Assembly: GCA_019244415.1 (NCBI GenBank)
Contig: JAFASN010000028.1
Span: forward strand, 1-64,000
Direction of reading: 5' to 3'
Length of the DNA: 64,000 bases
DNA from: Verrucomicrobiota bacterium
GTDB lineage: Bacteria > Verrucomicrobiota > Verrucomicrobiia > Chthoniobacterales > UBA10450
Both the position numbers and the translations under genes were made by a program. Positions within the stretch are counted from its first letter, which is position 1. Every line of letters begins with the position of its first letter. The notes below the pieces were generated by a model, which ran no database searches, had not been told where the DNA came from, and saw nothing but the letters and a program-made list of their open reading frames with translations. Positions 8,979 to 25,876 of this stretch are shown here, one piece after another.

Positions 8979-9579
8979 GTGGCTCTCCGAAAATTTCGCG
9001 GCGCAGCCATGCGCGCGCGACACGCCACTCGCGCTTGATGGTGCGCGGCGAGATGTCGAGTACATGCGCAGTTTCCGCGACGGTAAGGCCGCCGAAGAAA
9101 CGCAGCTCGACGATTTGCGACTGCCGCGGATCGATCGCCGCCAGATCGCGCAACGCGTCATCCAGCGCCACCAAGTCAATGCTCTCCTCGCCGGCAAGCT
9201 CCATCTGGTCCTCAAGCACCAGTGTTTCGGCCGTGCCGCCGCGTTTCAGTGAGCGATGCGCGCGCGCATAATCCACCAGTACACGGCGCATGACTTGGGC
9301 CGCTACGCCGAGAAAATGCGCCCGGTTCTGCCAGCTCACGCGCGTTTCATCTACCAGCCGCACGTAGGCTTCGTGTACCAGCGCGGTCGCCTGGAGAGTG
9401 TGCCCGGCCCGCTCGCGTTCCAGATAGCGCCGTGCGATCGCTCTCAGCTCATCGTAAACAATCGCCGCAAGCTGCTCCGGCTGCGGCGTTCCCGCTAAGA
9501 GCAACTGGGTGACATTTTCCTGGGCGCTGGGGGAAATCATCTTGAGTACACGCCGAGCTTGGGATTCTACGTTCCACAC
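8962..9579 (-). CDS. ECF-like RNA polymerase sigma factor (Sig-70_X6/TIGR02999-like)
   Basis: YDELRAIARRYLERERAGHTLQATALVHEAYVRL and C-terminal HTH LTVAETAHVLDISPRTIKREWRVARAWLRRE; overlaps start of kinase gene. Confidence 0.9.
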   Translation of the reverse strand: MWNVESQARRVLKMISPSAQENVTQLLLAGTPQPEQLAAIVYDELRAIARRYLERERAGHTLQATALVHEAYVRLVDETRVSWQNRAHFLGVAAQVMRRVLVDYARAHRSLKRGGTAETLVLEDQMELAGEESIDLVALDDALRDLAAIDPRQSQIVELRFFGGLTVAETAHVLDISPRTIKREWRVARAWLRREIFGEPHGACA

Positions 9580-9720: not shown

Positions 9721-9785
9721 AGCTTTTCAGCATTCAAAAAAACTCTGGCCCACTTCTCGGCGCAATCTCGCTTTGTACTCATGAA
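9721..9785 (+). promoter_or_regulatory. Copy F of recurrent upstream element of surface-protein genes
   Basis: agcttttcagcattcaaaaaaactcTGGCCCACTTCTCGGCGCAATCTCGCTTTGTACTC. Confidence 0.5.
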
Positions 9786-9853
9786 CAGACACCATGCCTA
9801 AGAGCGGGCGTGCGCTGGGCTGGCGTGCGCCCGCGACGGAGGCCATACAACCT

Positions 9854-10618
9854 ATGAAACTACTCCCACTACTTATCCTCTCCGCCGCAGTGTACACATT
9901 GTCTGCGCGCGGAGACACATTCACCCTCGATCCCACGGCTAGCACTCTCACCGTCAGCGGCAACAACATCTACGTCGGGATGTTCGCCCCGCAGGGAGCA
10001 AATAGCCTGACGACCAGCTACTCTGGAACGATCGATGCGACCGTCACCGCCAACTCGATCACCTTCAATTCGGCTGCGCTCGCTGCCGCTGTCAGCGGAA
10101 ACTGGCAACCGGCGGCGGGCGGCGCTGCCGGCTCTGCGCCGGCTGATTACGGCATCACGTTCGCACCACCCTATACCGGTCTGGCATATGCTGCCATCCG
10201 CAATCTCGTGCTCGATCTAAGTTCAAATGCGATTCCGACAACCGCTGGCTCGTTCGACTCAACCCAAATTTCAATCGCCGCAAGTTCCGGCACGACCGAT
10301 TACACCGGGCCGCTCGGCAGTGGCAGCATCGATCTGACGAAGCTCGGCAGCGGACCGAACGGCGCCATGCCGGGAATTTTGACGATGGTCGGCGGAATCG
10401 AGACGCTGACGATTCCCATCTCTTTTTCGGAAACCCTTTCAGTTGTTGGGCCAAACGACACGACTGCGACGTTCACCGGCACCATGGTCGCCACCGAGAT
10501 GCTGCCCGTGCCGGAGCCAGGTAGCTGGGTGCTGATGCTCGGCGGCCTCGGAGCGCTGCTGCTGTTTCAGCGCACTCGCTTTCGTCGCGTTTTCGTGAAG
10601 GATTCGCTTCTTCTGTAG
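9854..10618 (+). CDS. PEP-CTERM sorting domain-containing secreted protein
   Basis: Signal peptide MKLLPLLILSAAVYTLSARG; C-terminus VPEPGSWVLMLGGLGALLLFQRTRFRR. Confidence 0.85.
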   Translation: MKLLPLLILSAAVYTLSARGDTFTLDPTASTLTVSGNNIYVGMFAPQGANSLTTSYSGTIDATVTANSITFNSAALAAAVSGNWQPAAGGAAGSAPADYGITFAPPYTGLAYAAIRNLVLDLSSNAIPTTAGSFDSTQISIAASSGTTDYTGPLGSGSIDLTKLGSGPNGAMPGILTMVGGIETLTIPISFSETLSVVGPNDTTATFTGTMVATEMLPVPEPGSWVLMLGGLGALLLFQRTRFRRVFVKDSLLL

Positions 10619-10676
10619 GCCGACCATTCCTGGTTGGCGGATTACGGTTCGGCAACGAGGAATCGTCGCCCTCCAG
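10613..10676. repeat. Intergenic inverted-repeat element, family A (64 bp, second copy)
   Basis: CTGTAGGCCGACCATTCCTGGTTGGCGGATTACGGTTCGGCAACGAGGAATCGTCGCCCTCCAG; same length and layout as 4001-4064. Confidence 0.8.
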
Positions 10677-10764
10677 ATATCTTTCTCATGTCTGGCTCGA
10701 ATGGAAATAAACTCAAAACTTTCACTCATTGCAGCGCCACGAAGTCCGTGCCGCTGCGGCGCCA

Positions 10765-10836
10765 GCTTTTCAGTTTTTCAGTTTTTTGAATTTTGCTTGG
10801 CCCCGTTTGGCCCGCCTTTCCGCGTTACTCCGGTGA
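10765..10836 (+). promoter_or_regulatory. Copy A of recurrent upstream element
   Basis: agcttttcagtttttcagttttttgaattttgcTTGGCCCCGTTTGGCCCGCCTTTCCGCGTTACTCC. Confidence 0.5.
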
Positions 10837-10912
10837 CCACGTGTCATGCCTTGCCCAAGCGCGCCGCTCCGGAACGGCGGGGCACAGTTGCCAAGACAAA
10901 CGTAAATTAAAT

Positions 10913-13102
10913 ATGAGAAGCATTGATTCTCAATCTTCGAAAAAAGAGGATTACGGCCATCGTACTCTTCCGTTCTCTGTTTCAGCTTCAGCGGTTCTTG
11001 TGGTAGTCGCGCTGCTGGCAATCGCTTCGGCCGTTCACGCGCAGACTTGGAATGGCGGCACCGGCAACTGGGGCACGGCGAGTAACTGGACGCCGAACAC
11101 CGTTCCAAACAGCAGCAGCGCCGTCGTCGAAATCGACGGCAAACCCACGGTGACTTCGGTGGTCAATGTGAATGGGGTCTTCACTGTCGGGACACTGACG
11201 GTCGATAGCGGCGACACATTGAACCTGGGACCGTCGCCCGGTGGGAATCTGACGATCGACACAAAACTAAACAACGCTGGCAGCATCCTGCTGAATACAC
11301 CCAACAATCAGACGTTAACTATTAACAACAGCAACATGGCCAACAGTGGCTCGATTACTATCGCGGACGCGCCGCCCACATCGAACGTTGGCAATGCTCT
11401 TATTGCGAATGGGAACGTGACGCTAAGCGGAGGAGGTACGATCTCGTTAGCCGGAACTGTTAACGATCCTTATTACAGCAGACTCGATTTTCGTAATGCA
11501 CCCGCAATTGAGGTAGCCACGTTCATCAACCAAAACAACACCATACAAGGTTCAGGTGTGATTGCTGTAAACTCCGTCTTCACGAATGACGCCGCTGGTG
11601 TCGTAAATGCGAACAAGAGCGGCTACCAGCTAATCATCTACCCGACCGGCAGCAACAGTCTTGTCAACATGGGGACGATGGAAGCTTCGAACGGGGGTAG
11701 CTTGGTAATCCGAGGAGATACCCAGCAGAACGTGAATAATGCAGGTGGCACGTTCCAGGCACTGAACGCTTCGCAGGTGATCTTGGATAATACAGTAGTG
11801 ACTGGAGGCACGTTGCAAACCAGCGGCACGGGAACTATTCGGCTTCAGGTCACAGCTCTCGATAACGTAACCAACACCGGAAGCGTGGTTGTGGAACTTG
11901 GTGCGCCGAACCTCTCGGGCGAAGGATCGACGCTGTATGATACAATCACAAACAGCGGCTCAATTTCGATCGGCTCGACTGGCCGGTTGTATTCGCAAGG
12001 TGCGACGCTGGATGGCAGCGGGACCGTGTCGCTCACGGACAACGCGGCATTATTGCAAGGCACGCTGACGAACCTCAACAACACCATTCAAGGTTTCGGC
12101 ACGATCAATCAGGCGACACTAACCAATGGCTCGGCGGGCGTGATTGACGCAAACAGTTCGGGGAACACGCTAATAATTGCGCCAAGCTCCAGCAGCACCG
12201 GTTTCACCAACAACGGCCTGACCCGCGCTTCGAATGGCGGCATCCTTTCGATCACGAACAGCGGGCCGACGACGAACAACGGCACCTTTCTCGCCACCGG
12301 CGGCGGGACGATCAACATAGCATCCGGCGCGCTCACGAATTACTCGAGTACAACGCAGACGTTGACCGGCGGCACGTATAACGTGGAGGCCAATTCGACC
12401 TTGTCGCTCGGCGGGGGCAGCATCGTTACCAACGACGCGAACGTGTCGCTCAGCGGCGCGAACAGCACCTTTAACGAGATCAACGCGCTGGCCAACAACC
12501 AGGGCAGCTTCGCCATTTCCAATGGCCGAAACTTCACGACTGCTGGCGCGCTCTCGAACTCAGGCACAGTAGCGATCGGCTCGGGGACAACGCTCACAGT
12601 CAGCGGCGGCAATACCTTCACGCAATCAAGCACAGGCACACTCACCGGCGCAGGCACGTTGAGCGCGGCGAACAGCACAATCGATGGCACCGTTGCGCCC
12701 GGTGACAACGGGCCCGGCACACTCCACGTCACTGGCAACTTCAGCCTCCTCTCGAGCGCGCATCTCTCTTTCGAACTGGGCACGCCGGTGGTCGGGCCTA
12801 ACGATCAGATTGATGTCACCGGTAATCTCACGCTCGCCGGCACGCTCGATGTCAAGGCCCTTGCCGGCTTTGGGCCCGGTACTTACGACCTCATTAACTA
12901 CACCGGCACATTGAACAACAACGGCCTGAGCATCGGGATGTTCCCCGCCGGCTACACGGGCACGATCATCACCACCGTTCCCGGCCAGGTGGACCTGCTC
13001 GTCACGCCAGCAGTCGTTCCTGAGCAAGGGACGTGGGCGCTGATGTTGGGCGGCATCGGCGTGCTCGCCGCCTTCCACCGCAGGCGTACTCGCAAGATTT
13101 AG
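10913..13102 (+). CDS. PEP-CTERM autotransporter-repeat-like secreted protein
   Basis: Signal peptide region, WNGGTGNWGTASNWTPNTVP N-terminal motif, Gly/Asn/Thr-rich beta repeats, C-terminus VPEQGTWALMLGGIGVLAAFHRRRTRKI. Confidence 0.8.
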   Translation: MRSIDSQSSKKEDYGHRTLPFSVSASAVLVVVALLAIASAVHAQTWNGGTGNWGTASNWTPNTVPNSSSAVVEIDGKPTVTSVVNVNGVFTVGTLTVDSGDTLNLGPSPGGNLTIDTKLNNAGSILLNTPNNQTLTINNSNMANSGSITIADAPPTSNVGNALIANGNVTLSGGGTISLAGTVNDPYYSRLDFRNAPAIEVATFINQNNTIQGSGVIAVNSVFTNDAAGVVNANKSGYQLIIYPTGSNSLVNMGTMEASNGGSLVIRGDTQQNVNNAGGTFQALNASQVILDNTVVTGGTLQTSGTGTIRLQVTALDNVTNTGSVVVELGAPNLSGEGSTLYDTITNSGSISIGSTGRLYSQGATLDGSGTVSLTDNAALLQGTLTNLNNTIQGFGTINQATLTNGSAGVIDANSSGNTLIIAPSSSSTGFTNNGLTRASNGGILSITNSGPTTNNGTFLATGGGTINIASGALTNYSSTTQTLTGGTYNVEANSTLSLGGGSIVTNDANVSLSGANSTFNEINALANNQGSFAISNGRNFTTAGALSNSGTVAIGSGTTLTVSGGNTFTQSSTGTLTGAGTLSAANSTIDGTVAPGDNGPGTLHVTGNFSLLSSAHLSFELGTPVVGPNDQIDVTGNLTLAGTLDVKALAGFGPGTYDLINYTGTLNNNGLSIGMFPAGYTGTIITTVPGQVDLLVTPAVVPEQGTWALMLGGIGVLAAFHRRRTRKI

Positions 13103-13278
13103 ACAGCAATCATCCGGGGTTCTGGCTCTAGGACAGTTGGTGTTAACCGGCTCCCGCGCCGGTTCGGGCATGGTACTAAGCACGGTAAATACCGTTGGAC
13201 GCACAAAGGCCTGATATACTCCCAAAGTAGTATTCGCGGCGCCGTTACACGACACGATCACGGCTAAATCGGTCAACG

Positions 13279-13677
13279 ATCAGGTTTGATGATCGACGCA
13301 TCATGTTTGATCCCTCGACCATCATGTTTGATCCCTCGACCATCATGTTTGATCCCTCGACCATCATGTTTGATCCCTCGAGTATCATGTTTGATCCCTC
13401 GAGTATCATGTTTGATCCCTCGAGCATCATGTTTGATCCCTCGGGCATCATGTTTGATCCCTGGAGCATCATGTTTGATCCCTCGAGCATCATGTTTGAT
13501 CCTCCGAGCATCATGTTGGATCCTCCGAGCATCATGTTGGATCCTCCGAGCATCATGTTGGATCCTCCGAGCATCATGTTGGATCCTCCGAGTATCATGT
13601 TGAATCGCTGGAGTATCATGTTGGATCCCTCGAGCATCAGGTTGAATCCGCCTTTCATCAGCTTGGATGAGCCTAGG
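13279..13677. repeat. 21-bp tandem repeat (minisatellite), about 19 units
   Basis: Unit ATCATGTTTGATCCCTCGAGC drifting to ATCATGTTGGATCCTCCGAGC; every unit exactly 21 bp, degenerate at both ends. Confidence 0.95.
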
Positions 13678-13849
13678 CGTGAATCAGAATGCCAGTCGTC
13701 TTACGCGCAGAGAACGGTAGCGAATTACGGCTCTCTTGATTCAACAGCAATCAGTTTACCGGGAATTTCAACGCTTGCGCGACGAAGTCCTGTGACTTTA
13801 AACCCGAATGGCACCCCCTTCAGTCACCCTGAGCGGCGTAACAAGCGAT

Positions 13850-14103
13850 CCATCAGCGGGGCCATGGGCGTGCTCATGGGCGCCGGGACCGGTCGTACTT
13901 CGGTAAGCTCGGCCGACATCTCGTTTGTCAAAGCGCACTCGGGCATCGCTGCCCAGCCGCGTAATATCGGGAGCATCCGCGCCGATGTGACCGCCGATGG
14001 GGTAGTCAACAGCGCCGACATTTCCCTAACCAAAAGCAAGAGCGGAACGGCAATTACCGGCGGGACAAAGACGCTTCACAGATCCCCTGAATCAATCGGG
14101 TAA
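13850..14103 (+). pseudogene. Orphan dockerin-like C-terminal module, apparent remnant
   Basis: AMGVLMGAGTGRTSVSSADISFVKAHSGIAAQPRNIGSIRADVTADGVVNSADISLTKSKSG matches C-termini of the two downstream genes but lacks the preceding domain. Confidence 0.6.
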
Positions 14104-14120
14104 ATTCGCCTGATTCGCGG

Positions 14121-14185
14121 GGCAAAAAAAACGAAAAAACTTTGGCCCGGTTTTCATGCCGTTCTCGCGTTAGCCGTACAAACAC
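14121..14185 (+). promoter_or_regulatory. Copy E of recurrent upstream element
   Basis: ggcaaaaaaaacgaaaaaacTTTGGCCCGGTTTTCATGCCGTTCTCGCGTTAGCCGTAC. Confidence 0.5.
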
Positions 14186-14215
14186 CCGAATTCCGTACCG
14201 GAGGCAAAAGAAACC

Positions 14216-16654
14216 ATGAAGACAATGCAGCAGTTACCCAAACCGCCATTCCACTCGACAGAACGGACGGTTATCCCGCTTGAGCCGATGCCGATCGCCA
14301 GATCGACGAAAGCCGCTCGACGGAAGCGACTACTTCTTGCGTTAGGCGTTAGTCTGCTGCTCGCAGGAACTTTGCAGGCTCAAAGTTATACCTATGTCGG
14401 CCCAAACGGAGGAAACTGGAGCAACGCCGCGTATTGGAGTCCGGCCGGAATCCCAAACAGCACTACCGCGGATGTGACGATTCAGCAGCAGGGTCAGGGT
14501 ATCCTCCTTCCGGCCCTAAGCTCGATATTACCGTCCAGCTCCACAACCTAACGCTGACAAACCAGGCCGTCATCACCGCATCGGCAACCCAGCCATACAA
14601 TAATCTCACAGTACTCGGCGAGACGACGGATGATTATACGCATGTCGGAGGCGTGATAAGCAATTCGGGAGGAGTCTTTTCTCTCGGCTTTTTCGTGAAT
14701 GATCCAGACTGCCCCTGCTGGCTCGACCTTCCCATGGCGGTGAGTAATGGAGGAGTCACTCAGTGGAGCGGCGCTGATTTGTACCGCATAAGCAATTATC
14801 TTTACATGTCGGGTCCGAACTCCCGGCTCCAGCGGCAGGAGGACGGGTTCAACGCCTTAACGCACCTGTCGGAAACCCTCGGCACGCTTGTGTTCGTCAA
14901 CGGCTACAACTTCACGACGGTGAATGACATTCCACCAGGCGGCGGAGCGGGCAGTGACGGAAGCTTTGGAGTCAACGGCTATAGCGGCCTTCTTCAGATA
15001 GGACAAGCAAGCGACACGAACCCGACGACCTTCACAGTCGTTGGTAATCTCACCAACTTCGACGCAAGCACGAAGACCCTAAACGGCAATTACATAATCG
15101 ATGGGAGAGGTAGGACGGCGACGCTGCGTTTCAGCAATGCGAACGTTCAGGTGCTGAACAACGCCAATCTGGCTCTTTACGGCGACTGGCACATCACTGA
15201 TCTCAATGGCAACGATGCGATGGGGACGCTTGCGACGGTGCAAAATGGCTCGCAGTTCTCCTCGCCCAATGGTCAGACAATCACGCCGAATGGCGGCACG
15301 TTTCTCAACGATAGTTCGAGCCACATCATTCTGAACGACGCCCACGTCACGATCAACGGCAACTACCATCTCACCAACAACGGCCAGCTAACGGTCTCGC
15401 ATCCGAGCAGCGGCAGCACCACTTCCAATTTATATCTCGGCGGTGCGTTAACCGCAGACCACGGAGCGAAGATGGACATGGGCGGCCAGCCAGGCGTGAA
15501 CACCGATTACACCGGCACCGTTCTTACGGTTCAAAACGGTATCGTTTACAGCAATAGTGCCGCACTCACCGGTGTCGGGACCCGTCTACGCGCAACTCTC
15601 TTTTATCAGTGGTTCAGTACTTCAGCCCGGCGAAACGGGCGCCGCGCCCACAACGCAGAGTGTTGCGAAGGCGAAGAGCACGCCTCGCAAATCCGCGGCG
15701 GGCGTGGCGGCTGCGACTACCACTAACTCCGCCGGCGAGCTCATTGTTCAAGGCGCGCTCTCGCTCGATAACACCGCAACGACGCGAATCTTCATCGGCG
15801 GCACCACGGCCGGCAGCGGCTTTTCGCAGATTGCGCAACATGGGACATCGAGTGTCGCGCTAAACGGCACGCTTGACGTCTCCTTCACTAACGGCTTCCA
15901 GAATACCATCCGAAACTCCGACACCTTCAACATCCTCACGTCCAATAACACGGTTACCGGCGCGTTCTCGAACGTCGCGAGCGGTAATCGCGTGACGACA
16001 TCCGACGGGATTGGGAGTTTCCTCGTTACGTACGCCGGCCAGAAGACGGTCATACTGAGCGATTTTCTACCGTCCGTTAGCGTCTCCAGCGTCGTCTCCC
16101 GTCAAAGCCCGAAGAACGTGAACCTGGACATCCCGCTCAATCTCACGGGCAACTACACAATTGAATGCCGCAGGGGCGGCCCAGCGCCCGGCGGAACTTA
16201 CCAGGTGGTGTTTACCTTTGCTTACCCGCTCACGAACGCGCCCGCCACCAGCGCAACCGGCACATACACCAGTACCGCCAGCAGCTTCGGCGCTGATCAG
16301 ACGACTTGGGTGGTAAATCTAGCGGGCGTGACAAATGAGCAGGTGCTCGGCATCACGCTCAGCAACGTAAACGATACGCAGAACGAGCACAGCGATTCCA
16401 TCGCGGTGCAAATGGGAATTCTCATCGGCGATGCCACCGGTGGGCGGGACGCCAACGGCAACCCTGTAGTCAGTTCAGCCGATGTCTCCTTTGTCAAGGC
16501 GCACTCGGGCAAAGCCGCAACACCGGGCGATCTCGGCACCATCCGCGCCGATGTCACCGCCGACGGGGTGGTCAACAGCGCCGACGTTTCGCTGACGAAG
16601 AGCAAGAGCGGAACCGGAATCACCAGCGGGACGGGCGCGCCGGTGCATCGGTAA
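14216..16654 (+). pseudogene. Autotransporter-like/dockerin secreted protein interrupted by two compensating frameshifts
   Basis: ORFs 14216-14551, 14434-15726 and 15557-16654 together read as one protein; first and third share a frame; C-terminal dockerin-like module. Confidence 0.65.
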
Positions 16655-16789
16655 AGAACTCGCGGCGGAGCAATTAGCAGTTTTGTTTAACGCCCCGAGG
16701 TCGCTAGAGAGCCCCAGTTCGCGGAATCCCTTCTCCGAACTTTGTCACTCTTACCTTCCCACTGTCAGCGTTTCAGGATTTCAGCCTTT

Positions 16790-16870
16790 CAGTTGTTGAG
16801 CCTTTCAGCGTTTCAGTTTTTCACTTTTTTAAAAAATGTTGGCCCCGTTTGGCCGCACATCTCGCGTCCG
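16790..16870 (+). promoter_or_regulatory. Copy B of recurrent upstream element
   Basis: cctttcagcgtttcagtttttcacttttttaaaaaatgTTGGCCCCGTTTGGCCGCACATCTCGCGTCC. Confidence 0.5.
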
Positions 16871-16916
16871 CTTTATGAAGCATCAATCCCTGTACCGGAG
16901 ACAAAAAGACCAAACC

Positions 16917-18875
16917 ATGAAAACGATCCAGCTACTATTCGCTCGCAAATCATCTCTATTTCGGACCGCCCTCGCTCTTCCCGTGGCATTGGTACTCGCC
17001 TGCGCTGCTCACGGCGCGACCATCACCGTGCAAAGTACCGCTGATTCCGGCGGCACATGTCCCGGCTCGAATTGCACGCTGCGACAGGCGATGGCGGTGG
17101 CAAACAGCGGCGATACCATCAACTTTAGCTTCTCGCCTTCCGATCCGGGTTGCAGGGGTGGCGGGCTCGTCTGCACCATCACGCTCACCACTGGCGAGAT
17201 TTCGCTCGATAATAAGAGCCTCACCATCCAAGGACCCGCGGCGAGCGCAGTGACCGTCAGTGGCGATAACAACTCGCGCATTTTCCACGTGGGCGAAAAC
17301 TCGGGCGGTCCAGGGTCGACTTTCACAGTTTCGAACCTGACGCTCACGCACGGCAACTCAGCGACCGCCAGCGATAATCATGAGGGAGGCGCAATTAAAC
17401 AAACTGCCTATTACAACGTCATCCTCAATAATTGCGTGTTGACGAATAACAGCGCGGCGGGCCCGGGCGGCGCAATCGCCAATATTTTCTCGGGGACGCA
17501 GATCAACAATTGCGTGATCTCGAATAACCAGGGCAGCAGCGGCGGCGGAATCTATGCCAACAGCGGCCTCACAATTACCAACAGCACCATCTCCGGCAAT
17601 CAAACAACGGATCCTACTTACGGGGACGGCGGCGGTATCTTATCTGAATCGACAGCGACCATCAGCAATAGTACTATCTCGGGGAATACTTGCGGCGCCG
17701 GCGGACCCGGCGGGATCGACGCGAACAATGGCAGTTCGATCCTGACACTTACCAATTCGACTGTCTCCGGCAACCAAAGCAACAAGGGCACCGGTGGAAT
17801 CAATGTGGGAGGTAGCGGCGCGCTGATCAGCGGCTGCACCATTGCAAACAACACCGGCACCAAAACGGCGTTGAGCGGAGGCGGCAATTCTCCTGGAGGT
17901 GTCTACACCGGGAATACCACCAACTTCCCAACCATCCAGAACACCATCATCGCCAAGAATAGCACCGTCAGCGACCCTGGTAGCTACTCGGATGTCTCCG
18001 GCACGTTCATATCCAACGGTTACAACTTCATCGGCGACGCGGACGGCTCGACCAGCTTCAACCAGAGTACCGACCAGACCGGAACGACATCGAGTCCGAA
18101 GGATCCGCTGCTCGGCGCGTTGCAAGACAATGGCGGCACAACGACTTTGCGGGACGGTACTCACCTATTTACCATGGCACTCTCTTCCACCAGTGCGTGC
18201 GTGGACAAGGGGAATAGCTTCGGCCTGACGACCGATGAGCGCGGCTACAAGCGGCCGGTCGTGGTGACTTCGGGAACCCATCCCGGCGACGGCGCGGACA
18301 TCGGCGCGTATGAGCTGCAAATCCCGGTCACCGTCAGCTCGGTTGTCTCACGCAAAAACCCGAATGGGGTGAGCCTCGATATCCCGCTCTCGTTGACCAG
18401 CACGGTGATTGAATGCCGCAGGGGCGGCGGTACTCAGGCTTACGAAGTGGTGTTTACCTTCGCCAACGCGCTCACAGATGTGCCCGGCGTTACCGTGCAG
18501 GGAACCTATAGCAGCTCCGTCCCTAGCTCTCCCAATCCGAGTACTCTCGTCGTGGACCTCACCGGCGTAGCAAACGAGCAGGATCTCACCATTACGCTCA
18601 CGAACGTGACGGATAGCGCGGGTGAAGAGAGCGATTCCATCAGCGTGACCATGGGCGTGCTCATCGGCGCTGCGATCGGTCGCTCGCCGGTCAGCTCGGC
18701 CGACATCTCGTTTGTCAAAGCGCACTCGGGCATGGCTGCTCAGCCGGGAAACATCGGGAGCATCCGTGCCGACGTCACCGCCGACGGGGTGGTCAACAGC
18801 GCCGACATTTCGCTGACGAAGAGCCAGAGCGGAGCCGGAATTACCACCGGGACAGGGGCGCCGGTGCGTCGGTAA
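16917..18875 (+). CDS. Right-handed beta-helix (CSLREA-like) secreted protein with dockerin-like C-terminus
   Basis: TVQSTADSGGTCPGSNCTLRQAMAVANSGDTINF; NSTISGN-type repeats; RADVTADGVVNSADISLTKSQSG C-terminus. Confidence 0.8.
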   Translation: MKTIQLLFARKSSLFRTALALPVALVLACAAHGATITVQSTADSGGTCPGSNCTLRQAMAVANSGDTINFSFSPSDPGCRGGGLVCTITLTTGEISLDNKSLTIQGPAASAVTVSGDNNSRIFHVGENSGGPGSTFTVSNLTLTHGNSATASDNHEGGAIKQTAYYNVILNNCVLTNNSAAGPGGAIANIFSGTQINNCVISNNQGSSGGGIYANSGLTITNSTISGNQTTDPTYGDGGGILSESTATISNSTISGNTCGAGGPGGIDANNGSSILTLTNSTVSGNQSNKGTGGINVGGSGALISGCTIANNTGTKTALSGGGNSPGGVYTGNTTNFPTIQNTIIAKNSTVSDPGSYSDVSGTFISNGYNFIGDADGSTSFNQSTDQTGTTSSPKDPLLGALQDNGGTTTLRDGTHLFTMALSSTSACVDKGNSFGLTTDERGYKRPVVVTSGTHPGDGADIGAYELQIPVTVSSVVSRKNPNGVSLDIPLSLTSTVIECRRGGGTQAYEVVFTFANALTDVPGVTVQGTYSSSVPSSPNPSTLVVDLTGVANEQDLTITLTNVTDSAGEESDSISVTMGVLIGAAIGRSPVSSADISFVKAHSGMAAQPGNIGSIRADVTADGVVNSADISLTKSQSGAGITTGTGAPVRR

Positions 18876-19440
18876 AGAACTCTCGGTCCAGCAACAAGAA
18901 ATTGTATTTACCGCACACGGCCTCCCGCTGCTGCAGAAGCCGAGGTCGCGGAGTTCGCGATACACCTTAGCGAGCGTGAAAAATTCCTACATCTTCCGTC
19001 ACATGGGCAACGGCGTTGCGTTGGGGAAAAAATTAAAGAAATTCGATGCGCCCGTACGGCGGCGGTTTCGGGAACGAACTCCCAGGTATCGTCCATGAAG
19101 CCGGCGTGATTTTGTCCTCCGAAGAGGATGATGTGGCCTAACGAATCCCGCTCACCGTGCAGCGCGTTCGCTTTCGCCACACTTAGGAAAGAGTTAGATC
19201 AGGAACCCAGGAAAAGAGGTCTGAATTCCTCGCTTTCTGGCTACGGAATTTCTTCCTGCGTTCGTCATTGTTTGCAGCGCTGGCGCATCGGACCGACGCG
19301 AAGAGCGGAATGGGTGCGCCGTGGTCGCCTTCCAGCGTAGCGGGGGCCGTCGCCGTACTCAGGCAAAACAGTTGAATTAGGAAGGCAGGAATGAAGGTCT
19401 GCACTGGCTGCATTCAGCATTTCCGCGTTCCGCTTTTCAG

Positions 19441-19500
19441 CTTTTTGAAATTTCGTCTGGCCCCGTTTACCGGCCGTTTGCGCGTTTGTACTTAGAGGTG
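19441..19500 (+). promoter_or_regulatory. Copy C of recurrent upstream element
   Basis: ctttttgaaatttcgtcTGGCCCCGTTTACCGGCCGTTTGCGCGTTTGTACTTAGAGGTG. Confidence 0.55.
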
Positions 19501-19507
19501 AAATGTC

Positions 19508-22078
19508 ATGTCTAAGTACCGACTTGTTGCGAGTCTATCGTTCGTTTTTTACCTGACGCTCCCGCTTTTTGCGGCAACCGATACCTGGACCGGGGCGGGT
19601 AATGGCAACTGGAGCGACCCGAACGACTGGAGCAATGGCGTTCCTGGCTCGTACTCTTACCCCTACCTGATTTTCGACGCGACCGGCTCACAAGCACATG
19701 GGAGCTACGTTGACGGTACCTTCTCGGCGGAGACGCTTACCTTCGCCAGCGGTGCGCCAGCCTACACGATCACGATAGACGCAATCGGCACGCTTAATAT
19801 CGGCACAGGAATCGTCAATAACTCCAGCCAGACGCAAACATTCGCAGTGAATGGTCAGATGGCGTTCCTTGCCGGCGCATCGGCCGGCAATGCGATGCTG
19901 AACACGTTGAGCGGCACTGGAAGCACTGGCGGCACAGTGGGTTTCTACGGCAACTCTTTTGGCAACGCCACCGCGGCGAATGCCACTATCACGAACCAGG
20001 GGACAAGCGTGAGCGGAGATAGCGGCGGCACCACGACTTTCAACCAAGGCGCGACCGCAGGGAACGCCACGATCACGAGTAATGGGACAGGTCTTGGCGC
20101 GGGCTCAGGAAGCACGACATTCCAAGACAATTCCACCGCTGGAAACGCGACCCTCATCAACAACGGCGGTATAACGAATTTCGAAAGCGCCTCGACGGCG
20201 GCGAACGCCCACATCACCAACAATGCCGGCGGCTATACCATATTCAGCGGTACCTCAAGCGCGGCGTCAGCCACGATCAGCGGAGCTGGCGACACGCTTT
20301 TCGGCGGCAATTCCACCGCAGGTACTGCCACGATCAACGGCAGCGCAGGCAGCTATATCGAGTTCACCGCTGGTGCCAGTGCCGCCAGCGCGAACATTAC
20401 TGCAACTGGCACCGGCGCGAGTATCAACTTCCACAATGGCGGAACCGCTGGGAATGCAACTCTCACGGCAAACAGCGGCGCCACGATGATGTTCGCCAAT
20501 GGCACTGACGGCGGTACCGCTCGGGCCCTCGTCAACGCCGGCGCCACTTTCGACGTCAGTTACCAATCTCCCAGCATGAGCATCGGCTCGATCGAAGGGG
20601 CCGGAACGTTCGAGCTCGGCGGCACGCAGCTCACCGTGGGCAGCAACAACCTGAGTACCACGGTTTCCGGCGTTATCCAGGATCAGGGATCTAATACATT
20701 CGCTGCGGGCGGCAGCATCGTGAAAGTCGGCACTGGCACGCTGACCTTGAGCGGAAACAACACCTACACCGGCGGCACCATTGTCAATGTGGGCGGTCTT
20801 CAGGTAGGCGACGGCACCCATCCGGCAGCGCTGGTTGCCGGAACGGTGACCGACAGCAATGGAAGCACGTTCACTTACCCCGGCATCAACGCGATCACGC
20901 TCAACAACAATGCCACCGTTAATGTCATGGCGAACGCAACTGTGACCGGCGGCCACGGTGGCGCTGTCTATAACACAACGCAAGGTGGCGTCGGCGGAAC
21001 GGCAGTCGTGGTAACCGGCGCGGGCGCGTTGACGAACCATGGCACGCTCGTTGGCGGCACCGGCGGCGCTTCCGACAGCGGCCCAGATATCGGAACGGTG
21101 TATGGTCCCGGCGGTGTAGCGGTGGACTTTAAGCAGAGCAACACCTTCACCAACGCAGGCACAATCACCGGCGGCACGGGCGGGGGCAATGGAGGCACTG
21201 GCGTACTGATGGAAGCTGGCGGTTCGCTCACCAACGCCGGCACGATCAACGGCGGCACGGGTGGGACTGGCACTGCGTTCGCTCCAAACGGCGGCACAGC
21301 AGTCTCGCTTACCGCCGGCGGTTCAGTGATCAATTCGGGGACGATCGCGGGCGGAGGCTCCGCCGCAGGCGGGGCGAGCGGCAGTGGCGTAATGATCAGC
21401 GGCGGGTCCGGTACATTGGAGAACGACAAAGGCGGCTCGATTCAGGGCGGCGTCTCCATGGGCAACTACGCCAACAACGTGACCCTCCAGATCGGTAGCT
21501 CGATTACTGGCGACCTCAACATGGGTAACAGTACCGCATCCGCTCTTACCCTCACCGATAATGGCACCGGCGGCAGCCAGACGTACTCGAGCGCCGTTAC
21601 GGGAATGACGACGTTCAACGGCGCGCTCACCAAAAGCGGTCGCGGTACGTGGAATATCGACCAGGCGATGAGCTACAGCGGCGGCACTACGATCGCCGGC
21701 GGCACCCTCATCTCTTCCCACGACGGCGCACTTGGCACTGGTAACGTGAGCCTGCTTTCCGGTAACAACATCCAACTGACACTGCAAGGCGGCGTGACAA
21801 ATCAGTACATCGCCAGCACTGCATCGCTCTCCTTTAACACGAACAACAAAATCAACCTCAACTATGTAGGAGCCGACCAGATCGCCGCGCTCATTCTCAA
21901 CGGGCAATCTTTAGGACCGGGCATTTATAACAGCATCGATTTACCCGGCGAACTCACCGGCACGGGCGACCTGCTCGTCGTGCCGGAGCCATCCACCTGG
22001 GCGCTGATGCTTGGCGGCATCGGCGTACTGATCGCTTTTCAGCGCGCTCGCGTTCGCCGCGGTTTAGGAAAGCACTAG
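19508..22078 (+). CDS. PEP-CTERM autotransporter-repeat-like secreted protein
   Basis: Signal peptide MSKYRLVASLSFVFYLTLPLFA; LTKSGRGTWNI, GGTTIAGGTL repeats; C-terminus VPEPSTWALMLGGIGVLIAFQRARVRRGLGKH. Confidence 0.85.
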   Translation: MSKYRLVASLSFVFYLTLPLFAATDTWTGAGNGNWSDPNDWSNGVPGSYSYPYLIFDATGSQAHGSYVDGTFSAETLTFASGAPAYTITIDAIGTLNIGTGIVNNSSQTQTFAVNGQMAFLAGASAGNAMLNTLSGTGSTGGTVGFYGNSFGNATAANATITNQGTSVSGDSGGTTTFNQGATAGNATITSNGTGLGAGSGSTTFQDNSTAGNATLINNGGITNFESASTAANAHITNNAGGYTIFSGTSSAASATISGAGDTLFGGNSTAGTATINGSAGSYIEFTAGASAASANITATGTGASINFHNGGTAGNATLTANSGATMMFANGTDGGTARALVNAGATFDVSYQSPSMSIGSIEGAGTFELGGTQLTVGSNNLSTTVSGVIQDQGSNTFAAGGSIVKVGTGTLTLSGNNTYTGGTIVNVGGLQVGDGTHPAALVAGTVTDSNGSTFTYPGINAITLNNNATVNVMANATVTGGHGGAVYNTTQGGVGGTAVVVTGAGALTNHGTLVGGTGGASDSGPDIGTVYGPGGVAVDFKQSNTFTNAGTITGGTGGGNGGTGVLMEAGGSLTNAGTINGGTGGTGTAFAPNGGTAVSLTAGGSVINSGTIAGGGSAAGGASGSGVMISGGSGTLENDKGGSIQGGVSMGNYANNVTLQIGSSITGDLNMGNSTASALTLTDNGTGGSQTYSSAVTGMTTFNGALTKSGRGTWNIDQAMSYSGGTTIAGGTLISSHDGALGTGNVSLLSGNNIQLTLQGGVTNQYIASTASLSFNTNNKINLNYVGADQIAALILNGQSLGPGIYNSIDLPGELTGTGDLLVVPEPSTWALMLGGIGVLIAFQRARVRRGLGKH

Positions 22079-22094
22079 AAAAGATCTGAATTAG

Positions 22095-22144
22095 GAAACC
22101 AGGAACCCAGGAAAAGAGTTTGGAATTCCTGGCTTTCTGGCTTC
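22095..22144. repeat. 3' hairpin element shared by PEP-CTERM genes (copy 1)
   Basis: GAAACCAGGAACCCAGGAA-(12 nt)-TTCCTGGCTTTCTGGCTTC; 16/19 paired stem. Confidence 0.75.
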
Positions 22145-22200
22145 GGAATTGCGTCCTGCTTTCCTGCCTTCGTTATTCTTTTCTGCGCTGGCGCATCTGA

Positions 22201-22275
22201 GCTTCGCCGCTTCAGCTCTTCAAAAGAAGTTTGGCCCCGTTTACCGGCCGTTTTCGCGTTCGTACTTAGAGGTGA
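22201..22275 (+). promoter_or_regulatory. Copy D of recurrent upstream element
   Basis: ttcagctcttcaaaagaagtTTGGCCCCGTTTACCGGCCGTTTTCGCGTTCGTACTTAGAGG, near-identical to copy C. Confidence 0.55.
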
Positions 22276-22281
22276 AATGTC

Positions 22282-22408
22282 ATGTCTAAGTACCGACTTG
22301 CTGCGGGTCTCTCGTTCGTCTTTTCCGTGTGCGCTCGTGCTCGGCGGCATCGGCATACCGATTGCTTTTGCACGCGGGCGCGCGGCCAGAAACTCGAGAG
22401 TGAGATGA
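22282..22408 (+). pseudogene. Collapsed PEP-CTERM gene: signal-peptide start joined to a PEP-CTERM tail remnant
   Basis: MSKYRLAAGLSFVFS start, then in another frame ALVLGGIGIPIAFARGRAARNSRVR-stop; its TGA overlaps the next ATG. Confidence 0.65.
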
Positions 22409-23934
22409 AACAGCTCTCAGGATTACTTGTTCGCCGGGGAGCGGGCATCATTGCCGCCCTGGCGTTGGCGCCTGCTCTTCACGCGCAGGATCTCACAGTC
22501 GATAGCACGAACGGCAACAGCCCCTACACAGTTACCGCCGATGCCACCTACAATTATGGCTACATCGGCAACACCAGCACCGGAGAACTCGACCAGTCGG
22601 CTTTTACGTTAAGCTTCTACGACAACGTTTATGTCGGCTACGGCACCGGTAGCACTGGCACTTACAATCTCAGTGGCACCGGAAATCTTACGGCCAACTC
22701 GTACTTGTACGTCGGCTACAGTGGCACTGGCGTGTTTAATCAGACCGGCGGGACGAACACGGTCTCGTATGGATTGGACATCGGATACAATAAGCTCGGT
22801 CAAGGCACCTACACCTTAAGCGGAGGTACGCTGGATTGCGACTATGCAACGTATGGCGAGATAATTGGCGATAGTGGGACTGGCACAATCATCCAGAACG
22901 GCGGCGCAAATTCAACGCTCAACTCGTTCGTAATCGGCAATAGTATAGGTGGCAGCGGCAGTTACACCTTAAACAGCGGCACACTGAGCGCGTCCAGCTA
23001 TTCGGGCGAATATATCGGCGAAAGCGGCACCGGCGTTTTCACCCAGAACGGCGGGACCAACACTGCTGGCAGTGGCTCAAACGAACAGTACGGAATCTCG
23101 TTAGGCGATCAGACCGGCAGCAGCGGCACCTACAATCTCAACGGCGGCACGCTGCTGACCTCTTCGGTGTACGGATATAGCGGCACATCGACATTCAACT
23201 TCAACGGCGGCACGCTCAAGGCGAGTGCGAGCGACCTGAGTACGCAATATCCATTCATGACTGGCGTAACGACGGTAAACGTCCAGTCAGGCGGCGCCAA
23301 GATTGATACGAACGGCTACGGTATCACCATCGCTCAGAATCTACTGCACGATCCGACCAGTGGGGTGACTGACGGCGGGCTAACGAAGACCGGTGCAGGC
23401 GGGCTCGCACTCACGGGTAACAATACTTACAATGGCGGAACGTTTCTCCTGCAGGGCTCTCTCACGTTGACGGGTCACAATACCAATCCCGGTGGCACGT
23501 TTCTCTCCAACGTCAGCGGCTATGAAAGCGATCTTACCGCACAGGGAGACGGCGCGCTCGGCACCGGAAACGTGACCTTTCTCAGCGGCACGAATATTCA
23601 CCTGGTTCTCACTGGGGGCGTTACTAACCAATATATAGCCGCCACAGCTACCCTCTCTTTGCATTCCACCGGCAATTACATCAATACGGACAACGGTCTC
23701 TCTAATCCTCTTCCTGATAGTATCCGCGCGTTGATCGTGAATGGGGTCTATCAGCCAGCCGGCACGTACGGGTCATCAAGCACGAGCGCCGAATTCGTCG
23801 TGCCTTGGATGACGGGCGACCTGGAATTCCTCGTCGTGCCTGAGCCATCTACTTGGGCACTTGTGCTCGGGGGCGTGGGAACCCTGATGGTTTTTCAGCG
23901 CGGACGCATTCGGCGCGGTTTAGGAAAGCACTAG
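22405..23934 (+). CDS. PEP-CTERM autotransporter-repeat-like secreted protein
   Basis: Signal peptide MKQLSGLLVRRGAGIIAALALAPALHAQ; YVGYSGTGVFNQTGGTN repeats; VPEPSTWALVLGGVGTLMVFQRGRIRRGLGKH. Confidence 0.85.
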   Translation: MKQLSGLLVRRGAGIIAALALAPALHAQDLTVDSTNGNSPYTVTADATYNYGYIGNTSTGELDQSAFTLSFYDNVYVGYGTGSTGTYNLSGTGNLTANSYLYVGYSGTGVFNQTGGTNTVSYGLDIGYNKLGQGTYTLSGGTLDCDYATYGEIIGDSGTGTIIQNGGANSTLNSFVIGNSIGGSGSYTLNSGTLSASSYSGEYIGESGTGVFTQNGGTNTAGSGSNEQYGISLGDQTGSSGTYNLNGGTLLTSSVYGYSGTSTFNFNGGTLKASASDLSTQYPFMTGVTTVNVQSGGAKIDTNGYGITIAQNLLHDPTSGVTDGGLTKTGAGGLALTGNNTYNGGTFLLQGSLTLTGHNTNPGGTFLSNVSGYESDLTAQGDGALGTGNVTFLSGTNIHLVLTGGVTNQYIAATATLSLHSTGNYINTDNGLSNPLPDSIRALIVNGVYQPAGTYGSSSTSAEFVVPWMTGDLEFLVVPEPSTWALVLGGVGTLMVFQRGRIRRGLGKH

Positions 23935-23950
23935 AAAAGATCTGAATTAG

Positions 23951-24000
23951 GAAACCAGGAACCCAGGAAAAGAGTTTGGAATTCCTGGCTTTCTGGCTTC
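23951..24000. repeat. 3' hairpin element shared by PEP-CTERM genes (copy 2)
   Basis: Identical to 22095-22144 including flanking taggaaagcactagaaaagatctgaattag. Confidence 0.75.
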
Positions 24001-24066
24001 CAAATTCTCTCCTGCTTTCCTGAATCAGTTCTGCTGTTTGCGGTTCCATTAGAGTATCCTTTGATC

Positions 24067-24576
24067 ATGAAAACAACGATCAGATTCGCCGCTGGTTTGC
24101 TCGCTCTCGCCTTTGCCGCTGCCGACCAAATTGCCGGGCAAACGAACAATTCATCATCGCTGGCCGGCTCATGGCAGCTCGTGTTCACACCCACGGGTCC
24201 AGCGAGTGCGGCAATTGTGCCAATCCACGCCCTCGCCACCTTTACCTCCGATGGCAGCACGATAGAAACAGATGCTGCGGAAACGGTGCCGCTGCATGCT
24301 GATGGCATGAGCATTTACGGAACGCCTGGCCATGGAATCTGGCAGCCCGCACCGGCCGTTGGCACTCTTTTCATCCAATTCATTAATCTCCGCATCAATG
24401 AGAACCAAAGCCTTTACGCTACGCGGACTGTTACCATCTCCGGCGCGCTTGATTCCACAGGCAACGAGTTCAGCGGTAACTTCGCTGCGGAAACGCGCGA
24501 CCCGGCAGGACACGTGATCAGCACCAAATCTGGCACCGTAACCGGCCACCGCATTCCTCATCCATTACTTCCGTAG
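24067..24576 (+). CDS. Hypothetical secreted protein
   Basis: ORF with signal peptide MKTTIRFAAGLLALAFAAADQIAGQ. Confidence 0.6.
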   Translation: MKTTIRFAAGLLALAFAAADQIAGQTNNSSSLAGSWQLVFTPTGPASAAIVPIHALATFTSDGSTIETDAAETVPLHADGMSIYGTPGHGIWQPAPAVGTLFIQFINLRINENQSLYATRTVTISGALDSTGNEFSGNFAAETRDPAGHVISTKSGTVTGHRIPHPLLP

Positions 24577-25149
24577 CACCTCAAACACCCCGAGACTACG
24601 AAACTAAGCTCAACTTATTGTCACAGCTGGCACGTTCGCGACGACGACCGGTAATAGTACGGCGTATCGGCTAAGATTCTGCCTTCCTGACGCAACTCTT
24701 CGCTCACTCCGGCGAAAGCGCGTGTGCTGATCCCGAGCAGAGCAGCCTCGTAGGAAATTGCGCAGAACAAACGTGCCGTATCGCTCTAGAAGTTCAGTAG
24801 TTTGCGACTTGGCAAAAGATGCTGAAACGACAGCCAATCCGGAGCAGCAGAGGAATGAGGTTCTCGCCCGGAATTGAAGCAAACTCCCGCCGAAATTAAA
24901 CTTGTCTGGTACTCAACTATCTCCCCGAGTACAAGGACAGGCTACCCTGCTGTCCTCGCACCGTGAGTTACGATGTGCACTAGCCGGGTCGCTGTAGCCA
25001 TTCCGCCTGCGGCGAACGCAGGAAGAGGCGTTGCCAGCCGCGCGTCGGCCACTAGCCGACGTCTACAATGCATTTCGCGCAACGGTACCGTTCGCGATGA
25101 TCCAAGCGCGACGCTATGCAAAATTCCAGTTTCCGGCAATCAGGTCTGG

Positions 25150-25212
25150 AATTTTCGAAAAATTTGTGACCCGATTTCCGAGCAGTTTTTCGCATTTGTA
25201 CATTGGGACCAC
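25150..25212 (+). promoter_or_regulatory. Copy G (divergent) of recurrent upstream element
   Basis: attttcgaaaaatttgTGACCCGATTTCCGAGCAGTTTTTCGCATTTGTACAT. Confidence 0.4.
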
Positions 25213-25216
25213 AACT

Positions 25217-25876
25217 ATGACCACGAAACTTCTCACTGTAATAACAGCCCTGTGCCTCGGTTCGAGCGCCATCTCGGAAGGCGCACAGCTCATCGTCAAC
25301 GGCAATTTTGAAGCAGGCAACACCGGCTTCAGCAGTGCCTACACCTACGGAAACAATAACCCGCCTCAGACTTACACCATCGGGAATAACCCAGCCACCG
25401 CGCCCGGCCATTATGGCGACTGGGCCTCCTTCGGCGATCACACCACCGGCTCTGGGCTCATGATGATCATCAATGGAGGCACTGATGCGACCGCGCCTTT
25501 TTGGTCCCAAACGGTGAATCTTACGGCTGGTCAAACGTATTCGTATTCCTTTTGGGGAGCGGCCATACAGAGTGGCAGCGGCGCTGACGTCCAGCTTTAC
25601 GTCAGCGGCACCGCGCGAGGCTCGGCTCTGCTCTTGAATGGCTCAGCCGGCGCCTGGCAGCGGGACAGCGGCACCTTCCGCGCGACGAGTAGCGGCAGCG
25701 TGACGCTCAGGCTTGTGGACCTCAACACCAACGTCGCTCAGAACGACTTTACCATCGACGATATCAGCTTGACCGGCGGGCAGCACAGCGTGCCCGAATC
25801 CGGAGCAGGTTACGCATTGCTGGTCATGGGGTTGATTCCGGTAGAGTTCTTGCGGCGGAGATTGGCTCAGGGCTAA
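25217..25876 (+). CDS. Secreted protein with VPESG-type C-terminal sorting tail
   Basis: Signal peptide; LIVNGNFEAGNTGFSSAY; C-terminus VPESGAGYALLVMGLIPVEFLRRRLAQG. Confidence 0.7.
   Translation: MTTKLLTVITALCLGSSAISEGAQLIVNGNFEAGNTGFSSAYTYGNNNPPQTYTIGNNPATAPGHYGDWASFGDHTTGSGLMMIINGGTDATAPFWSQTVNLTAGQTYSYSFWGAAIQSGSGADVQLYVSGTARGSALLLNGSAGAWQRDSGTFRATSSGSVTLRLVDLNTNVAQNDFTIDDISLTGGQHSVPESGAGYALLVMGLIPVEFLRRRLAQG

Follow-up and report, generated by a model that had tools for sequence, protein, structure and literature searches.

Seven surface-protein genes of a Verrucomicrobiota bacterium share a bipartite promoter, probably read by a neighboring kinase-linked ECF sigma factor

A cluster of surface-protein genes in a Verrucomicrobiota bacterium (Chthoniobacterales, UBA10450) raises the question of how otherwise diverse genes come to carry the same upstream block. 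The stretch analyzed here (hereafter, the window) comprises 64,000 nucleotides, positions 1 to 64,000 of contig JAFASN010000028.1 of assembly GCA_019244415.1, and an original prediction made from its letters alone placed seven copies of the block, named A to G, upstream of seven such genes. Based on sequence comparisons, we propose that the seven blocks are very probably promoters of an extracytoplasmic function (ECF) sigma factor encoded beside them on the minus strand (8962 to 9540), under the predicted control of a neighboring kinase.

All seven copies were present, on the plus strand. A two-block weight matrix built from them gave 37 to 47 bits at the seven sites, compared with at most 12 bits in the ten shuffled windows that served as control, and in leave-one-out runs each copy was recovered at or near the top among 128,000 positions. 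Scans were also made with R1, a sequence-only model of the seven copies that was built from the window alone and has a rough calibration. The copies, each found by the matrix and by the R1 scan, are as follows, with the first base of the TGG or TGA box in parentheses.

9727 to 9784, plus strand: promoter copy F (9746), with -35 TGGCCC at 9746 to 9751 and -10 CGCTTT at 9769 to 9774; between gene F and the divergent ECF sigma gene, and kept in orthologues of that sigma gene
10779 to 10836, plus strand: promoter copy A (10798)
14124 to 14181, plus strand: promoter copy E (14143)
16821 to 16878, plus strand: promoter copy B (16840)
19439 to 19496, plus strand: promoter copy C (19458)
22213 to 22270, plus strand: promoter copy D (22232), partly duplicated with C, as flank comparison also indicated
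25148 to 25205, plus strand: promoter copy G (25167), the most diverged, with TGACCC and a spacer one base longer

When aligned on the TGG box, six copies ran gap-free and the seventh (G) had one extra spacer base. The conserved core consists of an A/T tract of ~14 nt, then TGGCCC (TGACCC in G) as the -35 element, a spacer of 16 to 17 nt (18 nt in G), and CGCKTT as the -10 element, often directly followed by nGTAC. A shared core had been predicted, and it exists, but its outline differed: the repeated (CTTTTCAG)n that had been counted as part of the consensus is exact in some copies only, exceeds chance by very little (6 matches versus 2 expected), and is absent from relatives, and the distance to the start codon, given as 10 to 90 bp from the end of the block, is 21 to 86 nt when taken from the -10 box. 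With two boxes about 16 to 18 nt apart, a variable spacer, and a location 5' of gene starts, towards which the copies always point within the window, the block has the form of an ECF-type promoter and, judging from its letters, is a bipartite -35/-10-type promoter. A further matrix match of 23 bits on the minus strand within gene C (20172) was dropped, as it lacks the TGGCC box.

The core length of ~50 nt and the extended A/T tract could also be expected of an activator or repressor site (or an UP-like enhancer) that works with the housekeeping sigma-70 polymerase. However, two boxes at 16 to 18 nt with a non-conserved spacer resemble -35 and -10 elements, the distance between the -10 element and the start codon is normal, no separate conserved TATAAT-like box was seen in the copies (by eye, unscored), and the motif tracks sigma-factor clades, as described below. 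We therefore regard such a site as unlikely.

Divergent from copy F is an operon that is headed by the putative cognate sigma factor, P0001, and includes two kinase genes.

8962 to 9540, minus strand: ECF sigma factor P0001 of the TIGR02999/PF07638 type, 192 amino acids, likely start ATG 9540, QATA in region 2.2 (Thr52)
6519 to 8978, minus strand: transmembrane Ser/Thr protein kinase P0002 with TPR repeats, overlapping the end of the sigma gene
4078 to 6519, minus strand: second Ser/Thr protein kinase P0003 with TPR repeats

The original prediction had missed this operon, the orthologues of which keep the promoter in the same place. P0001 matched TIGR02999 at 1.6e-62 (above the cut-off) and PF07638 at 5e-51, and, like other members of the ECF family, it consists of sigma2 and sigma4 only. 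Both kinases have a membrane segment and TPR repeats, and their genes follow directly downstream of the sigma gene, as Hanks-type kinase neighbors. In region 2.2 of P0001, the acidic DAED is replaced by QATA; in an alignment to 6dxo, the canonical factor shows AED at this position. Homologues for comparison were gathered from named metagenome-assembled genomes (MAGs) of Spartobacteria/Chthoniobacterales and many Acidobacteriota, as well as from 83 same-family genomes, which yielded 125 non-redundant sigma loci with upstream sequence. The Thr (QxTA) that goes with the loss of DAED is conserved in 118/125 homologues, and a kinase gene lies downstream of the sigma gene in 92/111. By its QATA motif, at a position where the ECF43 consensus is QTTA, and by its kinase neighbor, P0001 appears to be of the ECF43 type, although TIGR02999 may be broader than ECF43. 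In the ECF43 factors EcfP/PknT of Vibrio parahaemolyticus and EcfK/PknS of Xanthomonas citri, the neighbor-encoded kinase phosphorylates the corresponding Thr, which has been proposed to restore the negative charge for RNA polymerase binding (PMC8999054, PMC13147305).

If P0001 reads the block, the promoter should travel with its orthologues. The matrix used on the divergent gaps, with a threshold of 15 bits, was trained on the own-genome copies except F, so that these gaps lay outside the training set. It matched copy F and the divergent gap of each of the eight homologues ranked nearest by tblastn, oriented away from the sigma gene. Overall, where the sigma factor was at least 60% identical to P0001, 10/15 loci (own locus included) had the motif above 15 bits in the divergent gap, compared with 5/110 others, while neither the reverse strand nor the sequence downstream of the sigma gene gave a match over this threshold at any of the 125 loci. 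Other genera, at 55 to 66% sigma-factor identity, have also retained the block. When mapped on a sigma-factor likelihood tree, the motif label changed 6 times, versus 14.4 times when shuffled, and 0/500 shuffles were as low. Among the family genomes, an R1 match (E <= 0.01) was present in 9/10 with a close P0001 homologue and in 3/72 without one (Fisher p = 7e-9). The corresponding presence/absence table for model R2 is striking; yet R2 was trained partly on the same loci, and the co-occurrence test is for this reason limited to R1.

The best matches in relatives mostly lie ~100 to 290 bp from the sigma gene and are divergent from it, and several more distant matches in genomes G028, G029, and G032 precede secreted proteins. 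Loci L152 and L166 have two or three secreted-protein genes in succession, every one with a promoter copy of its own, an arrangement that is the window's array in miniature. By a simple hydropathy rule, the divergent open reading frame (ORF) has a signal-peptide-like start in 70/98 cases (71%), compared with 187/596 control ORFs (31%) of the same loci (p = 1e-13). As far as the compared loci indicate, other soil bacteria also combine sigma factor, kinase, and surface gene in this way, with a promoter code that is particular to each lineage.

Two details were noted at individual loci. A related genome has a good match (G012:C1:72383-72442, L016; E 5.7e-6) 5' of a small 101-amino-acid protein of unknown kind, with no adjacent sigma gene. 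In L152 (6668 to 7126) and L166 (6555 to 7064), from two Spartobacteria MAGs, a small gene (MNANARELILKEEVYAVVGGAIEVLNVRGHGLHEKIYENCL...) stands between the sigma factor and the kinase.

Within the source genome, a draft of 134 contigs and 3.15 Mb, the block is largely confined to the cluster. The seven copies ranked first in the R1 scan (E = 2.8e-17 to 4e-11), followed by only two further strong sites, on C126 (E 1.7e-7) and C130 (E 6e-7), and nothing else was under E 0.1; the scan scored a first-look subset of candidates, and weak copies may be missed. The C126 site is located 5' of a secreted beta-helix protein. A weaker match (G000:C111:8186-8231, L046; E 2.7e-4 by R2, 0.2 by R1) lies just 5' of a FecR-like secreted protein and is a possible further member of the regulon. 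The genome has 29 PEP-CTERM matches at E < 0.01, four of them within this cluster, and the genome-wide scan placed the block at none of the ~25 PEP-CTERM genes outside it. The idea that the block marks PEP-CTERM or dockerin genes in general was not supported, and a general PEP-CTERM promoter was rejected on the same grounds. The presence of several similar copies near one another might suggest mobile or repetitive DNA, or else an RNA leader. Such an origin is very improbable, as the copies are always oriented to a gene start in the window, only two strong copies occur beyond the cluster, and the block gave no conserved RNA fold among the copies and no Rfam match.

The distribution also bears on the sigma-54 promoter of the proteobacterial PrsK/PrsR PEP-CTERM regulon, with which the block shares its position 5' of PEP-CTERM genes and an initial TGGC. 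The original prediction had argued against this promoter from a GG-to-GC spacing of about 12 nt. That spacing is not meaningful, but the conclusion drawn from it is correct: GC follows GG after ten bases in 0/7 copies, a strict sigma-54 (-24/-12) pattern has no match in the window, and ~25 other PEP-CTERM genes do without the block. A sigma-54 promoter can hardly be the explanation, and the signal is unlike the proteobacterial one, as had been supposed.

If the block is instead an ECF promoter specific to the P0001 clade, other clades should have other -35 elements. The genome encodes six TIGR02999-type sigma factors; the divergent gene is a PEP-CTERM gene for those on C60, C108, and C23 and a gene with a VPDAG-type tail for that on C24. 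In the gaps at C108, C23, and C79, TGTCCGTTT takes the place of TGGCCC and is followed by a similar -10 box. TGTCCGTTT was found in the divergent gap in 7/8 members of the clade that includes the C108, C23, and C79 factors, versus 0/117 elsewhere. Likewise, TGGCGGGTT occurred in the gap in 12/12 of its clade (1/113 elsewhere), TTTGAGCC in 6/6 (2/119 elsewhere), and a fifth element, GATCACTTTGATC, in 3/6 (0/119 elsewhere). The TGTCCGTTT clade is well diverged internally, with end branches of ~0.6 in three paralogues, and the box that its members share is therefore unlikely to reflect mere recent ancestry. Such a clade-by-clade match is the pattern expected of cognate sigma/promoter pairs. Short elements were less telling: the ATGTCCGTTT 10-mer alone was weakly informative (0 to 13 matches per genome; 10 in the own genome versus 3 for the control) and became informative only once placed in divergent gaps, and TGGCC[CGT] alone, present in 27/114 outside the clade, was unspecific; discrimination required the complete motif with both boxes. 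A general expectation-maximization (EM) motif from all 125 gaps, an A-tract with CCGCTTT, was not used as evidence, because conserved coding sequence interfered with its downstream control.

In the proposed mechanism, RNA polymerase with P0001 would read the -35 TGGCCC and the -10 CGCKTT, 16 to 18 nt apart, with the A/T-rich tract just upstream of the -35 element acting as an UP-like element, and each surface-protein gene would be transcribed from its own block; binding of the blocks by P0001 is likely. The family to which P0001 belongs shares its operons with transmembrane Ser/Thr kinases and is devoid of the acidic DAED residues, the contacts to RNA polymerase, which suggests how the system may be gated. 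P0001 would most likely be silent until a kinase (6519 to 8978 or 4078 to 6519) responds to something extracellular by phosphorylating Thr52 (counted from ATG 9540) in the QATA motif, which would activate the factor. By analogy with EcfP and EcfK, such kinase control is perhaps to be expected, and we consider it fairly probable. The ancestral state was probably a single sigma/kinase operon with a single secreted-protein gene opposite it, represented here by copy F, from which the promoter would have spread to six more tandem surface genes and at least one distant gene in this genome.

Several observations weigh against this model. Another regulator encoded in the same conserved neighborhood may give the same association, and in EcfK, the Thr equivalent to Thr52 is not strictly required (PMC13147305). 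The clade-specific -35 patterns were picked after inspection and the clade members are related, so that p-values overstate their independence. Over all 125 loci, distances in sigma region 4 and in the -35 element were only weakly correlated (Mantel rho 0.086, p 0.009), in part because automatic site calling is noisy, and the spacer distance correlation was -0.008 (p 0.62). Finally, the C130 site (G000:C130:3480-3526, L045) has no clear protein gene downstream on its strand; a small RNA, a small protein, or a relic is possible there.

The system resembles EcfP/PknT and EcfK/PknS in having a sigma gene beside a Hanks-type kinase gene and a Q-x-T-A-type motif in place of DAED, and EcfK/PknS also in its possible adjacent target genes (the T6SS locus for EcfK). 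Unlike in EcfP and EcfK, the targets here are PEP-CTERM and dockerin-type surface proteins, the host lineage is Verrucomicrobiota/Acidobacteriota, the phosphorylation is predicted, and the target gene is divergent, with a recognizable cognate promoter repeated over a gene array. With the proteobacterial PrsR/PrsK/PrsT system (Haft et al. 2006, PMC1569441; pepA/RpoN1, PMC9850573) it shares one upstream signal on diverse single-gene PEP-CTERM units; in contrast, it has -35/-10 rather than -24/-12 elements, covers a local array rather than most PEP-CTERM genes of the genome, and pairs an ECF sigma factor with a Ser/Thr kinase instead of sigma-54 with a two-component system. The bipartite form, the 16- to 18-nt spacing, and the sigma-specific -35 box are those of ECF-type promoters generally, while the particular boxes TGGCCC and CGCKTT differ from others; no published motif for the P0001 sigma clade was found in the literature searched.

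The discoverers of PEP-CTERM noted in 2006 that regulators and DNA motifs beyond the proteobacterial sigma-54 class were still to be found (PMC1569441). The present locus offers a concrete, testable non-sigma-54 case, with sigma factor, kinases, promoter sequence, and target genes together, and the match of sigma clades with -35 elements provides ready-made cognate pairs for promoter-recognition studies of kinase-gated sigma factors, in largely uncultured soil lineages with sparse regulatory biology. More broadly, we lean towards the view that the kinase-linked ECF sigma factors of Verrucomicrobiota and Acidobacteriota form a widespread class of surface-protein switches. Each clade would keep its own -35 code in the gap divergent from a secreted-protein gene, several insulated kinase-sigma-surface modules would coexist per genome (at least C60, C108, C23, and C24 here), and single modules would grow by promoter spread over tandem arrays. 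If so, these modules would be a non-proteobacterial counterpart of the sigma-54 PEP-CTERM regulon.

The genes behind the seven copies are the following.

9854 to 10618, plus strand: gene F, PEP-CTERM protein
10913 to 13102, plus strand: gene A, large secreted protein with a PEP-CTERM tail (VPEQGTWALMLGG)
14216 to 16654, plus strand: gene E, dockerin-type secreted protein, frameshifted in the assembly
16917 to 18875, plus strand: gene B, beta-helix/choice-of-anchor Q protein with a dockerin end
19508 to 22078, plus strand: gene C, PATR-repeat PEP-CTERM protein
22282 to 23934, plus strand: gene D, PEP-CTERM repeat protein, with ATG 22405 as the probable real start
25217 to 25876, plus strand: gene G, choice-of-anchor C type protein with a VPESG tail

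Outside the block, C and D have flanks and gene starts in common, as would be expected if the blocks were remnants of recent whole-gene duplication without regulatory meaning. Flank similarity was not clear in any of the other 20 pairs (E/B was marginal), however, and duplication therefore explains the C/D pair only; together with the persistence of the block in other genera, this makes duplication a most improbable account of the block. The predicted dedicated promoter common to otherwise diverse genes is borne out.

Behind promoter D (22282 to 22405), the first ~40 codons are a leftover C-like gene start with an out-of-frame PEP-CTERM-like tail (GGIGIPIAFARGRAARNSRVR, frame 2). This segment looks like an internal deletion that followed the duplication of C, and the start codon of gene D proper, which has a signal peptide of its own, is probably ATG 22405. 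Gene E is spread over three frames (14216 to 14551, about 14434 to 15726, and 15557 to 16654) and represents either a pseudogene or assembly indels. Between genes A and E, a 21-bp tandem repeat (ATCATGTTTGATCCCTCGAGC) present in 17 copies (13279 to 13643) opens an ORF (13303 to 14103) that has no shared promoter upstream and reads (MFDPSSI)n, with a dockerin-like domain at its end.

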